A DNA stretch of 64,000 nucleotides from NCBI RefSeq assembly GCF_003003885.1, contig NZ_PVWN01000007.1:1-64000 (forward strand). Reading direction: 5' to 3'. Of the stretch, positions 9,800-13,974 are shown piece by piece (position 1 is the first letter of the stretch; each line of letters begins with the position of its first letter). The translations under genes were made by a program, and so were the position numbers. The DNA is from Chlorogloea sp. CCALA 695 (lineage in GTDB: Bacteria; Cyanobacteriota; Cyanobacteriia; Cyanobacteriales; Chroococcidiopsidaceae). The notes beneath the pieces are model-generated. The model worked only from the letters and a program-made list of their open reading frames with translations. It was not told where the DNA came from and did no database searches.

Positions 9800-10490
9800 A
9801 AGCAACTCTAGCGGCGGCTTGTTCGGCGGCTTTAATTGAACGTCCTTTACCCTGCCCCAATTGCCGATCTTGCAGCCAAACTTGAGCGCTAAACCGCTCG
9901 TCTGGCACTTCAGAACGATGCCCTTGAGGAGTTTCAATTACCCGATACTCTGGTAATACTTTGAAATGTCCCTGAGTCCATTCTTGCAAGGCAGCTTTGT
10001 AATTTAGTCGCGCCGGATCGCTACGAATTTCTGTAGCTAATTGAACAAAATGCGGATCGAGCCAAGGTCTAATTAGTTCTAAAGTATGGGTACTCAGGTA
10101 CAAAGCCCCTAATACAGCCTCAAAAGCATCGGCTAACCTTGACTGCTGCCCCTCTTTGTCGCTGCTAGTTACCAGTAAGTAAGGTTCAAGCCCATAACTA
10201 ATTGCTAAAGAAGCCAAAATGCGATCGCTCACCAATACCGAACGAATTGCCGCAAATTCTCCCACTTTCCAATCTGGATAAACTTCCCACAACACCTCTG
10301 CCGCCACTAGGCGCACTACCGCATCGCCGACAAACTCTAATTGTTCGTAATTTGCCACCGCCGAGACACTAGGATGAGTCAGCGCCAAATCTAACAATTG
10401 CCACTTTACTTGAGTAATACTTGGAACTCCTAAAATTTGCAGCAAGCTTTCTAACTGCTTTTGGCGAGGCGGATAACTCAATTTCGTCAT
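9771..10490 (-). CDS. rnc: Ribonuclease III
   Basis: This is the double-strand RNA endonuclease for rRNA and mRNA processing, 239 residues. The catalytic domain carries the signature NYEQLEFVGDAVVRLV (acidic residues at about 49, 52 and 56) and ADAFEAVLGALYL (Asp about 121, Glu about 124), so the metal-binding site is complete. The C-terminal dsRNA-binding domain runs from NYKAALQEWTQG to SIKAAEQAAARVAF. Start ATG is at 10488-10490. The gene converges on the histidine kinase with a 29-base overlap. Cyanobacteria often have more than one RNase III-type gene; this one has the full two-domain form. Confidence 0.93.
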   Translation of the reverse strand: MTKLSYPPRQKQLESLLQILGVPSITQVKWQLLDLALTHPSVSAVANYEQLEFVGDAVVRLVAAEVLWEVYPDWKVGEFAAIRSVLVSDRILASLAISYGLEPYLLVTSSDKEGQQSRLADAFEAVLGALYLSTHTLELIRPWLDPHFVQLATEIRSDPARLNYKAALQEWTQGHFKVLPEYRVIETPQGHRSEVPDERFSAQVWLQDRQLGQGKGRSIKAAEQAAARVAFRTLSQQGE

Positions 10491-10594
10491 GGAAGTTGTT
10501 TAGCAGGAAATTTCCGCAAATTGTCTATATTATTGGCATAGTTTAATCGACTTCTAGAAAATTAATTAAAGACTCCGCCTTTTCTTTGCTCTCT

Positions 10595-11512
10595 ATGGAT
10601 TTACCGTTAATTTATCATCCTGACTATGTTGTCCCGTTGCCCCAAGCTCACCGTTTCCCCATGCCCAAGTTTCGGCAACTGTACGAACTATTATTAAACG
10701 ATAAAGTTGCCCAAATAGAGCAGTTTTTTATTCCCGAAACTCCATCCCAACAACTGATTGAGCTAGTTCATACTCCCCAATACGTCCAAGCTTATATACA
10801 AGGAACTTTAGATGCTAAAGCCCAGCGTCGGATTGGTTTACCTTGGAGCCCAGCTTTAGTTAAACGCACAAATATCGCCGTAGGTGGCACAATTTTAACA
10901 GCCAAACTCGCCCTAAAATATGGTTTAGCTTGCAATACGGCGGGGGGTACTCATCATGCTTTTCCAAGTTACGGATCGGGCTATTGTATTTTTAACGATT
11001 TAGCGATCGCCTCTCGCGTTATTCAGCATCTCAATCTTGCTTGCAAAATCTTAATTATTGACTTAGACGTACATCAAGGTGATGGTACGGCGTTTATTTT
11101 TCAAAATGACGACAGCGTATTTACTTTTTCGATGCACTGCGAAGTCAATTTTCCTGGTACTAAACAAGTTAGCGATTTAGATATTGCGCTCCCGGTAGCA
11201 ATGGAAGATGAGGAATATTTACAAACTTTGGCTCATTATCTAACCGATATCCTCACGGCTGTTAAGCCCGATTTGGTGTTGTATGATGCGGGGGTAGATA
11301 CTCATATAAGCGATCGCTTAGGCAAATTAGCCATGACTGATACCGGGATTTTTCGCCGAGAAATGCAAGTATTATCTACCTGTATTGCGGCTAGATACCC
11401 CATTGCCTGTGTCATTGGTGGCGGTTATGCTGACGATCTTAAGAGCTTAGTGTATCGTCACTCTTTGCTACACCGCGCCGCTAGTCAGGTTTATCGTCAA
11501 TACAGCCTTTAA
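10595..11512 (+). CDS. Histone deacetylase-family protein (acetyl-lysine or acetylpolyamine hydrolase)
   Basis: This zinc amidohydrolase has about 305 residues. Key motifs are GGTHHAFPSYGSGYCIFND (the tandem catalytic His pair), IIDLDVHQGDGTAFIF (zinc ligands Asp and His) and LYDAGVDTHISDRLG (third ligand Asp). GGGYADD near the C-terminus replaces the usual GGY loop. ATG 10595 was chosen over TTG 10586. It is divergent from rnc. The substrate is unknown; bacterial members act on acetylated proteins or small amides. A strong hairpin follows the stop and separates it from the converging LEA-like gene. Confidence 0.9.
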   Translation: MDLPLIYHPDYVVPLPQAHRFPMPKFRQLYELLLNDKVAQIEQFFIPETPSQQLIELVHTPQYVQAYIQGTLDAKAQRRIGLPWSPALVKRTNIAVGGTILTAKLALKYGLACNTAGGTHHAFPSYGSGYCIFNDLAIASRVIQHLNLACKILIIDLDVHQGDGTAFIFQNDDSVFTFSMHCEVNFPGTKQVSDLDIALPVAMEDEEYLQTLAHYLTDILTAVKPDLVLYDAGVDTHISDRLGKLAMTDTGIFRREMQVLSTCIAARYPIACVIGGGYADDLKSLVYRHSLLHRAASQVYRQYSL

Positions 11513-11525
11513 CACTATTTCTTAC

Positions 11526-11558
11526 AGCAAAGGGCATGGAATCACCATACCCTTTGCT
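11526..11558. terminator. Bidirectional terminator between HDAC-like and LEA-like genes
   Basis: AGCAAAGGG (11526-11534) pairs perfectly with CCCTTTGCT (11550-11558), and ATGG/CCAT extends the stem inside. TTT follows on the plus strand. It lies between two converging genes. Confidence 0.75.
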
Positions 11559-11584
11559 TTAACCCGATATTGAGAAACTTACCC

Positions 11585-12241
11585 CTACGGAATATTTACT
11601 TGAGGAGAATTTGTAGGTATTCCACTACTGTCAGGATTCTGCATCACATATTTATCTTTATCTACTGGCACTAAAATGTAAGCAGTCTGAGTTTCGGTCG
11701 GCTTTTGCGTACCCTCTACTGGCTGATTTTCTGCCTCTGATACTGATTGGCTGGCAGCATCTACCGTACTTCTGACATTTTGGCTCACACTTTCACTAGC
11801 ACCCTTAATTACATCGGCTGTCCCTTTAACAGTGTAATTAACGCTTTGAGCAGTATTTTTAACTACATTTACCGTGCCTTTCAAATTTTCGTTGACTTCT
11901 TCTGCTGTACCTTTAACAGTCGTACCAACATCTTTAAGAGTGTAATCTACATTTTCCGCTACATTTTTGACGGCATCGCCCACACCTTTTACTGTTTTGC
12001 CTACACCTTCGGTTGCACCTTTAACGGCATCGCCCATACCTTTTACTGTATTGTTTACGCTTTCAATCGTAATTTTACTTGCAAAGGCTGCTGCCGCCGC
12101 GCCCATCAAAGCCCCAAAAACTGCACCAATGCCGATTGTAGCTAAGTTATATCCCTTATCTGTATTTGGTTCAACCTGATCTTGAGCCGTAGCTTGATCT
12201 TGTGTAGTTACATCTTTATCTAGCAAAATGCGATCGCTCAT
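11585..12241 (-). CDS. LEA-like repeat protein with glycine-rich membrane segment (paralogue 1)
   Basis: This protein has 218 residues. A glycine/alanine-rich hydrophobic stretch (IGAVFGALMGAAAAAFA, about residues 36-54) resembles a glycine-zipper membrane segment. Residues about 60-165 are a run of degenerate 11-residue repeats (VKGMGDAVKGA, VKGVGDAVKNV, VKGTADVIKGA) typical of group-3 LEA-like amphipathic helices. The C-terminus carries TQTAYILVPVDKDKY, shared with the neighbouring paralogue. LEA-type repeats are known to protect proteins and membranes during drying; that role here is inferred. A SD-like AAGGAG lies upstream of the ATG. Confidence 0.7.
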   Translation of the reverse strand: MSDRILLDKDVTTQDQATAQDQVEPNTDKGYNLATIGIGAVFGALMGAAAAAFASKITIESVNNTVKGMGDAVKGATEGVGKTVKGVGDAVKNVAENVDYTLKDVGTTVKGTAEEVNENLKGTVNVVKNTAQSVNYTVKGTADVIKGASESVSQNVRSTVDAASQSVSEAENQPVEGTQKPTETQTAYILVPVDKDKYVMQNPDSSGIPTNSPQVNIP

Positions 12242-12541
12242 TTTAATTATCTCCTTAAGGCTAAAACTATCAAATTATTGTCAGCAGACATTTCTTAACT
12301 AAACAAGTTGCACTTTCTGTCGTTCTATTTGCTAACCTTTTCTATCTTGGCAGCAAATAAATTCTCAATTGAGCAACTGTTGATTACAATCTATTTGTAA
12401 GGCGTGGAGTTTGATTTACTTACAATTTAAAAGTAGTTTTTTATTGCTCCACGCACTTAACCCTACAAAAAATAGGTTTTTAAGTTTGAGGAAAAATCGT
12501 TATTGCTTAGGTTTAGTATCAATAACATTCGCGATCAAAAC
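12242..12541. other. Intergenic region between the two LEA-like genes
   Basis: This AT-rich leader belongs to the downstream paralogue on the minus strand. GCGTGGAG (12402-12409) pairs with CTCCACGC (12447-12454) across a 37-base loop. No gene is seen. Confidence 0.5.
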
Positions 12542-13261
12542 TTAATCATTAAAATCAGAGTTTTGCTCGTTATATTGATTTGCTTGGTCATAATCTTGAC
12601 TTGGTTGATTCAATTCTTCTGGCATAACGCTTTCTTCAGAATCTACATTTGGCGCAGATTCAACAATTATTGTGCGCTCAATAATCCGCTCTTTTTCTAC
12701 AGGAATTAAAACATAGGTCGTTTGAGGTTCAAATTCTTGGTCAGCAGGATTAACATAGTCAGCAGTTTGCTTTAACTTATCTGTAACGCTTTCTAAAGAT
12801 TTTTTAGCCCCTTCTGTGGTATCTTTAATTGCATCTACCACCGGATTTACTAAGCCTTGATTGACACCCTCAGCTACGGTTTTTGCTGCTTCTCCTACGC
12901 CTTTTGCGGCAACATTAACACCTTCACCTACGCTTTTTACCGCATCCCCAACGCCTTTAGCAGCAAGGTTAGCGCCTTGAATGGTTTTTTTATTCGACAA
13001 CGCCGCCGCTAACGTTCCTAAAGTTGCGCCCAGGAGTCCACCAAGCAAAACTTTATTTAAGTTGTTACCTTTTTGACCTTTGGATTGAAGCGGATTATCA
13101 GAACTTTTTTCTCTAGGCATGGAAGCACCTTTAATGCTTTCATTTTTAGGTAATTCAGTACTTATTTTTTTACTTACGGCTCTAATATAAAATTGACCAT
13201 CTGTAGCAGTGCTATCATTTTTATTTTGCTGGTTCATAGCTGTTTGTTCATCTAGTTTCAT
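12542..13261 (-). CDS. LEA-like repeat protein with glycine-rich membrane segment (paralogue 2)
   Basis: This 239-residue protein has the same architecture as its neighbour. A polar N-terminus precedes a Gly/Ala-rich hydrophobic segment (VLLGGLLGATLGTLAAALS, about residues 70-90). A block of repeats follows (AAKGVGDAVKSVGEGVN, AAKGVGEAAKTVAEGVN), then a conserved PQTTYVLIPVEKER motif and a long acidic, Gln/Asn-rich tail. The repeat block is shorter than in paralogue 1, and the N- and C-terminal extensions differ. The two genes are tandem on the minus strand, 300 bases apart, so they probably arose by duplication. Function is inferred only from the LEA-like pattern. Confidence 0.7.
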   Translation of the reverse strand: MKLDEQTAMNQQNKNDSTATDGQFYIRAVSKKISTELPKNESIKGASMPREKSSDNPLQSKGQKGNNLNKVLLGGLLGATLGTLAAALSNKKTIQGANLAAKGVGDAVKSVGEGVNVAAKGVGEAAKTVAEGVNQGLVNPVVDAIKDTTEGAKKSLESVTDKLKQTADYVNPADQEFEPQTTYVLIPVEKERIIERTIIVESAPNVDSEESVMPEELNQPSQDYDQANQYNEQNSDFND

Positions 13262-13974
13262 GACAATTTCTCCGTTGTTGTAAACTACTTAGATTGTTCA
13301 TTTGTGTGATTTCTGTTTGAGAAACATAAACCTACAAACTTTAGCATCTATACAATTGCAGATTTTAAGAAGGGGAAAAGCTTTGCTATTGCCTCAATAC
13401 TTGCTTCAAGAATGCTGGTTTTTTGCTTCTCTTTTGTAATCTAACAATTGCCGAACTCTAACTTCACTAGACTAAAGATGTACATTCTCCAATTCTTAGT
13501 CTTTCTTTAGTTGTAATTTATTGAATTTAATTTAAGCCACTTATTTTTGCTTGAATAAATTTTTGATATGTTTTATTGCTAATTAACCTTAAACAGTAAT
13601 TCTTAGGTTCTCTAAAAAGTAAATATTAGGCGCTCAAAGCAGCGAATGGGAAATAAACGTCCAACAACTCAATTTAATGCTAAATTTGCCTAATTATCTA
13701 GCTAAAACTACGTATTTGCGATTAATTGCTGCGTTTAGAGTTAACCAATTGCTAAAATGCGAAGCCCTGCGTGCGCGCTTGCGCGATCGCACGTCCCGCC
13801 AAAGATTATAAAAATAGATGATAAAATTGAAGCTTGTCAGCCAAGGCAAAAAGTAAGTCGAACAGTGTAGTAGTGTATTACTACTTTAGACAAAGGTTTT
13901 GTTCTAAAGACAGATGAAGCATTTTGCTAGGCTAGATACAATTTTTAAAAACAAAAAAAGCCGAGGAATAATCT
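13262..13974. other. 713-base intergenic region upstream of gshA
   Basis: No gene is seen; sequence is AT-rich. It holds a dispersed GCGAAGC repeat (13759-13796) and a small perfect hairpin GTAGTA-loop-TACTAC at 13867-13884. The gshA promoter and the promoter of paralogue 2 on the other strand should lie here. Confidence 0.5.
13759..13796. repeat. Dispersed GCGAAGC repeat, copy B
   Basis: GCGAAGCCCTGCGTGCGCGC followed by TTGCGCGATCGCACG is related to copies at 2014, 47245 and 50483. This copy is intergenic and includes a HIP1-like core. Confidence 0.6.

Follow-up and report, generated by a model that had tools for sequence, protein, structure and literature searches.

What kind of protein do two adjacent genes, here called A and B, of the cyanobacterium Chlorogloea sp. 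CCALA 695 encode, and what might these proteins do for the cell? The genes lie in a 64,000-nucleotide stretch of contig NZ_PVWN01000007.1, which was analyzed as a whole (the window). The original prediction was that both proteins combine a Gly/Ala-rich hydrophobic helix, runs of 11-residue LEA-type repeats and a YxLxPV block near the C-terminus, in an architecture with no name, and that they may anchor a desiccation-protective helix to membranes. The features are listed in Table 1; genomes and loci are cited by our G and L numbers, with G000 the genome of the window.

Table 1. Features of the A/B locus, in window coordinates.
Feature	Position	Strand	Basis
Gene A, class A protein, 218 aa	11585..12241	-	ORF
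Gene B, class B protein, 239 aa	12542..13261	-	ORF
A, glycine-zipper hydrophobic segment (GxxxGxxxG), residues 36-55	12077..12136	-	hydropathy, conservation
B, glycine-zipper hydrophobic segment, residues 71-89	12995..13051	-	hydropathy
A, six 18-residue amphipathic repeats, residues 62-169 (sixth degenerate)	11735..12058	-	periodicity; AlphaFold2, low confidence
B, amphipathic helix region, residues 97-168 (two clear 18-residue units, then degenerate)	12758..12973	-	periodicity
A, C-terminal block TQTAYILVPVDK, residues 184-195	11657..11692	-	conservation, dN/dS, DUF2382 profile
B, C-terminal block QTTYVLIPVEKERIIER, residues 180-196	12674..12724	-	sequence comparison, DUF2382 profile
Promoter-like element upstream of B (CTTTAG, GTTAA-like and GTTAGATT parts), ~65 bp	13426..13490	-	conservation, EM
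Presence/absence module (both genes and promoter element), ~2.4 kb	11506..13886	.	flanks joined in two same-genus genomes

A and B are paralogues under purifying selection

A lies 300 bp downstream of B on the same (minus) strand of the window, and the two proteins are related, as had been predicted: they are paralogues by BLASTP (32% over 171 columns, E 1e-13, in a single comparison). In both, a variable polar N-terminus is followed by a GxxxGxxxG hydrophobic segment, a long amphipathic region and, after a variable linker, a short block. Neither A nor B had a Pfam or NCBIfam match above the cut-off, and the best Pfam match was that of apolipophorin-III (ApoLp-III) to A, at E 2.4e-4, below the cut-off of that model. 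A sequence search of the PDB gave weak matches to viral fusion proteins, ClpA and a three-helix bundle (best E 0.008), which we judged to be chance. There were no tblastn matches of A in 72,556 plasmid records.

A scan of the contigs of the named genomes gave one locus (L031), in Chroococcus sp. CMT-3BRIN-NPC107, where an orthologous pair is found amid the same surrounding genes as in the window. Compared with these orthologues, both A and B are under purifying selection (dN/dS of 0.20 and 0.21, respectively). The values were 0.06 and 0.03 in the zipper and 0.12 and 0.08 in the helix repeats, and the block of A had no nonsynonymous changes in 26.7 sites.

A conserved glycine zipper lies in the hydrophobic segment

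The Gly/Ala-rich hydrophobic segment expected in both proteins was found, with a mean KD of 1.96 in A (approximately residues 36-55) and 1.80 in B (residues 71-89). Both have GxxxGxxxG within a hydrophobic segment, the criterion for glycine-zipper membrane proteins. Among the class A relatives, the zipper glycines G43 and G47 of A were present in 33 of 33 proteins and G39 in 32 of 33.

In general stress proteins of the YtxH family, an amphipathic helix comes after a hydrophobic segment rich in Gly. The view that the architecture has no name is softened by this comparison, as stress proteins with a zipper and a helix are a known kind. A and B scored 8.8 and 13 bits with the YtxH model (PF12732), against a curated cut-off of 37.5, and we know of no 18-residue repeats or block in YtxH proteins. 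The only true YtxH of the own genome was in a 120-aa open frame at G000:C46:3723-3896 (L230).

A and B might instead be envelope or pore proteins of the YtxH or glycine-zipper type, in which an oligomeric zipper forms or regulates a pore and the helix is a mere spacer. The conserved zipper fits this explanation, as do sub-threshold YtxH matches in relatives (3e-4, 0.031 and 0.045; 4.4e-5) and a Gly-zipper_Omp match at its cut-off in one paralogue (L165). We consider it unlikely, given that A and B miss the YtxH cut-off, that a true YtxH is encoded elsewhere in the genome, and that the conservation of the helix repeats (dN/dS above) argues against a mere spacer.

The amphipathic helix has an 18-residue period

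The repeats are not the 11-residue repeats of the original prediction. Self-identity of A was 0.40 at lag 18 and 0.23 at lag 11, compared to an expectation of 0.10 from composition, and among 33 class A relatives the best lag was 18 in 30, 36 in one and 11 in two (G561 and G588). The helical peak of A was at 99.5 degrees (P 18.3, versus a shuffle maximum of 8.1). In 22 class A proteins of the neighborhood set the peak was at 99.0-100.5 degrees, indicating an ordinary alpha helix with a straight apolar stripe of Val, Ala, Thr and Gly. B-position proteins were less regular than class A, with lag 18 best in 21 of 32, and the periodicity of the window B was weak (P 6.2, versus a shuffle 95th percentile of 5.8 and maximum of 8.0).

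The repeat consensus of class A is V-N-x-T-V-K-(D/N)-V-G-D-A-V-K-G-(T/A)-A-E-G. Around the helix, the apolar arc spans 280-80 degrees, Lys is at 120-140 degrees and mostly Asp or Glu at 160-200 degrees; only 40 of 3894 residues in the helix stretches were aromatic or Cys. AlphaFold2 predicted helices at residues 27-54 and 59-164 of A, with low confidence (mean pLDDT 55.8, from two sequences).

A and B are like the group 3 LEA proteins in their long polar amphipathic helix, few aromatics and stress setting, but they have a membrane segment and a period of 18 rather than 11 residues. The repeat period rules out identity with LEA group 3. The LEA_4 model (PF02987) was not among the Pfam matches of A and B up to E 5. 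It also had no match in the own genome, an absence that is weak evidence because the model matched none of 14 controls.

Surface-seeking amphipathic helices are also found in perilipin 4 and alpha-synuclein. A and B share such a helix with apolipoproteins and apolipophorin-III; they differ from apolipoproteins, perilipin 4 and alpha-synuclein in repeat length, membrane anchor and phylogenetic setting. Perilipin 4 coats neutral-lipid surfaces, and A and B could likewise be a coat of lipid droplets or plastoglobules, with the weakly hydrophobic Val/Thr/Ala/Gly helix on neutral lipid and the zipper segment as the droplet anchor. The composition of the helix, with few aromatics, and the sub-threshold matches to apolipoprotein and phasin profiles are consistent with such a coat. 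We nevertheless think it quite unlikely: the helix is a straight 18/5 helix, in contrast to the 11/3 repeats of perilipins and synucleins, and the promoter-like element described below is shared with genes for stress-type and carotenoid-binding proteins, not with lipid genes. In addition, the available parts of a study of alkanes and droplets in Nostoc punctiforme (PMC7660261) name no such protein.

The C-terminal block is probably a short DUF2382 form

Both window proteins end in a block of like type, QT[AT]Y[IV]L[VI]PV[DE]K, in agreement with the original prediction. Of the 33 class A proteins, 30 had Y-x-L-[VI]-P-[VILM] (all but those of G457, G561 and G588), and 27 of these 30 ended at most 10 residues past the proline of the block. 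Of 32 B-position proteins, 15 had a Y[IV]S-type block, two, both from the own genus, had an A-type block, and 15 had neither. The A-type YxLxPV blocks on own-genus B proteins are at window positions 12674-12724 and in L031:599-1357; gene conversion between the tandem copies is a possible origin. T.Y.[LF].PV had 14 DNA matches in the own genome, two of which read the pattern backwards, and the in-frame matches inside glycine-zipper proteins were those in A and B only.

We compared the block with the AvaK/YsnF domain (DUF2382, PF09557; TIGR02271), the first part of which aligns with the block of some A/B members, using a profile of six domains, four from the own genome and two from relatives. 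At the C-terminal part, 11 of 64 A/B proteins scored at least 10.3 bits, compared to one of 1300 shuffles, in a count that left out the middle gene of G430 (131 bits; see below). The 11 include both window proteins, and only four of 33 class A proteins reach this score. Among 280 neighboring proteins searched with the same profile, all those above 5 bits were A/B family members, and the best unrelated protein had 4.7 bits. The profile aligned '..ETETAxVSVPIEKERVVIER..' with 'ETQTAYILVPVDKDKYV'. Alignment of the block with DUF2382 by hhalign gave E 0.0015 and a probability of 17%, and the column-reversed control was empty. Pfam gave no matches to either window block.

A complete DUF2382 domain is absent from A and B by Pfam, and unlike AvaK/YsnF proteins they have no PRC barrels. 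There are further links to this group: a glycine-zipper protein with complete DUF2382 is encoded between B and A in G430, and AvaK-type genes bear the element in G524 and G512. We regard the block as probably, but not certainly, a short form of the AvaK/YsnF domain and not as an isolated motif. The own genome also has a cluster of four DUF2382 stretches at G000:C14:10737-15117 (L224, L225, L227 and L228), without a recognizable element.

A conserved short C-terminal block past a variable linker, together with a long predicted helix, could also belong to a tether from the membrane to peptidoglycan or the outer membrane, with the block as the binding end and stress as one condition. No signal peptide or lipobox was evident by reading and no wall-binding domain matched, making a tether decidedly improbable.

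The two genes are present or absent as a module

At E 0.001, a search with a single protein detected relatives in 17 of the 292 genomes searched in the phylum. A profile search at E 1e-5, whose matches include longer paralogues, was positive in 74 of 388 genomes of the order. B was upstream of A on the same strand in 32 of 33 class A loci, and the 33rd (G514) was at a contig end. The distance from A to the next upstream gene varied from 61 to 562 bp, and N-termini and linkers were variable among class A relatives. In 22 neighborhoods, no other gene was directly beside the pair in more than two loci, apart from third copies of the family. A kinase-like gene was in seven of the 22, in varying places, and an ABC-ATPase-like gene in four (labels by reading). 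Transposase-like fragments, also labeled by reading, were near the pair in two of the 22 (L077:6885-7193 and 10174-10494; L086).

In its own genus, the pair was in two of six searched genomes (G000 and G445); two of the other four are 65-74% complete. Two same-genus genomes have an empty site: the aligned flanks are 120 bp apart in G313 (L236) and 66 bp apart in G421 (L237), without the 2.4 kb. In G430, which belongs to another genus, the pair adjoins the same genes on the right, and it is therefore simpler to assume that G313 and G421 lost it. G430 has a three-gene form (L090:8844-11830) of B, the glycine-zipper protein with complete DUF2382, and then A. The middle gene was counted as B in the conservation and gap, EM, period, dN/dS and DUF2382-profile runs; we took the next upstream gene (306 aa) to be the true B, and the element is upstream of that gene by model R1 (below).

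The pair was also found in G284 (L004 and L047), presumed to be the brackish planktonic species Nodularia spumigena (CCY9414). Its presence there and absence from the close relatives G313 and G421 indicate that the pair is dispensable and has no strict tie to dry habitats, and a role in desiccation, as first proposed, is too narrow by itself.

A promoter-like element is conserved upstream of B

The element has three parts: CTTTAG, GTTAAGT and, about 15 bases farther along, GTTAGATT. Counts of k-mers in the upstream regions were barely above shuffles; we spotted the element by eye in the k-mer output and afterwards tested it by EM. The EM sum was 393.8, versus a maximum of 249.1 in 100 mononucleotide-shuffled runs. 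Of 21 loci, 19 had the element before B (score at least 13.9). The exceptions were L089 and L090, and for L090 the wrong gene had been taken; L088, at a contig edge, was not among the 21. None of the regions upstream of A scored above 5.9 in the same run. Three of the 21 sites (L089, L090 and L092) were left out of alignment A6.

The proteins could also be products of ordinary low-complexity drift without a selected function, as the variable N-termini and linkers and the absence of the pair from close relatives might suggest. The dN/dS values of A and B, the conserved tandem order and the conserved promoter element all argue against drift, and we consider it extremely unlikely.

We searched 388 genomes with a model of 18 sites (R1) and 12 genomes with a model of 22 sites (R2); the E-values of both are rough, owing to a shortened calibration. 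R1 had matches at E ≤ 0.02 in 115 of the 388 genomes. One strong copy (E 1.8e-6), at L148:1989-2049 (G125:C1:2604588-2604648), overlaps the end of a 79-aa ORF (L244), and no ORF of at least 60 aa starts downstream of it. This copy is perhaps the remnant of a lost module.

The element recurs upstream of putative stress genes

Comparison of R1 matches with family-profile positions placed the element upstream of 11 longer A/B-family paralogues and, in seven genomes (G345, G324, G362, G388, G404, G415 and G309), upstream of the gene for a third glycine-zipper protein that neighbors the pair. In L082, L083, L085, L081, L240, L241 and L242, this third gene adjoins the pair on the opposite strand with its own element.

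We fetched 40 weaker non-family R1 matches. Seven precede Carot_N-type genes, two SDR genes, two AvaK-type genes (PRC and DUF2382) and one another glycine-zipper protein, a share of 12 of 40 that is biased because the matches were picked by E-value and partly by recurring match range. Nine others precede other single genes (one of them GlgX), four have no downstream ORF and 15 are inside genes; 13 of the 40, other than the 15 intragenic ones, recur without a common gene. Pfam was run on two of the seven Carot_N-type proteins and on both SDR and both AvaK-type proteins. None of the weakest R1 matches inspected (L107, L108, L113, L114, L120 and L121) precedes a stress-type gene.

R2 gave a similar picture for matches that had not been used in building it. 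At E ≤ 0.03, four of five non-family matches precede SDR (G445 and G352) or Carot_N (G567 and G400) genes, and the fifth is intragenic; the G445 SDR match is only partly independent because G445 is a close relative of G000. At E 0.03-0.1, five of 15 matches were inspected, and none was before a stress-type gene.

Overall, the element precedes SDR genes in G000, G313, G445, G352 and G567 (three genera, two families), Carot_N (PF09150) genes in nine genomes (five genera, three families), and AvaK-type genes in G524 and G512 (one genus). The own genome has two clear copies, one at the B-A pair and the other at G000:C165:18780-18839 (L106:1501-1560), 136 bp before an SDR oxidoreductase gene. Past the SDR gene, on the opposite strand, is a hemerythrin gene (PF01814), an arrangement also seen in L202 and L209. 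The Carot_N and DUF2382 genes of the own genome have no convincing element (one weak half match).

The genes under the element appear to be of the general-stress kind: an SDR of the GSP39 kind, AvaK/YsnF and a helical carotenoid protein. The SigB regulon of Bacillus includes YtxH, YsnF and GSP39. The recurrence of the element before stress-type genes suggests a stress regulon. OrrA is a candidate regulator: it controls osmolyte genes, as described in the available part of PMC13131328, and reportedly also avaKa, according to the title of a paper cited there. The literature accessible to us in part gave no OrrA binding site to compare with the element. We found no paper on the A/B family in the available portions of the open-licence literature, which included PMC3610870, PMC12157317, PMC7660261 and PMC13131328.

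Discussion

The tandem module and the shared element are our strongest results. The two genes come and go as a unit and have a control sequence common to stress-type genes, and based on this we think that their products probably shield membranes during salt stress or drying. We lean toward the view that B and A are membrane-anchored stress-protective proteins within a conserved osmotic or drying stress regulon. The membrane-anchored protective helix of the original prediction is plausible and gains indirect support from the stress-type promoter element; its LEA group 3 label is lost. Given the pair in presumed N. spumigena, the relevant condition would be osmotic stress in general rather than drying alone.

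In the mechanism that we propose, a stress regulator would switch on the promoter element upstream of B during osmotic stress or drying. The glycine-zipper segment of each protein would insert in the membrane, probably oligomerizing there and possibly bringing A and B together. The helix of 18-residue repeats would rest on the membrane surface via its Val/Ala/Thr/Gly face, probably being loosely ordered when wet and becoming helical on loss of water or a rise in salt, and these helices would keep bilayers sealed and separate from one another. Docking of partner stress proteins may be the role of the short C-terminal block, which is probably a reduced piece of the AvaK/YsnF type.

There is about an even chance, in our judgment, that the element marks a general cyanobacterial stress regulon of which B-A would be the dedicated membrane-surface protectant, built by joining a glycine zipper to an 18/5 helix and a reduced AvaK/YsnF strand. 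The proposed members are octadecad-helix membrane proteins, a GSP39-like SDR, AvaK/YsnF-type proteins and helical carotenoid proteins. Such a membership would be comparable to that of the Bacillus SigB regulon, and we found this regulon described nowhere.

To our knowledge, how cyanobacterial membranes survive drying or osmotic shock is poorly resolved at the protein level. The B-A pair is a specific two-gene candidate with natural presence and absence controls inside one genus, and the element offers a testable marker for a stress regulon that would join membrane protectants, carotenoid proteins and AvaK proteins.
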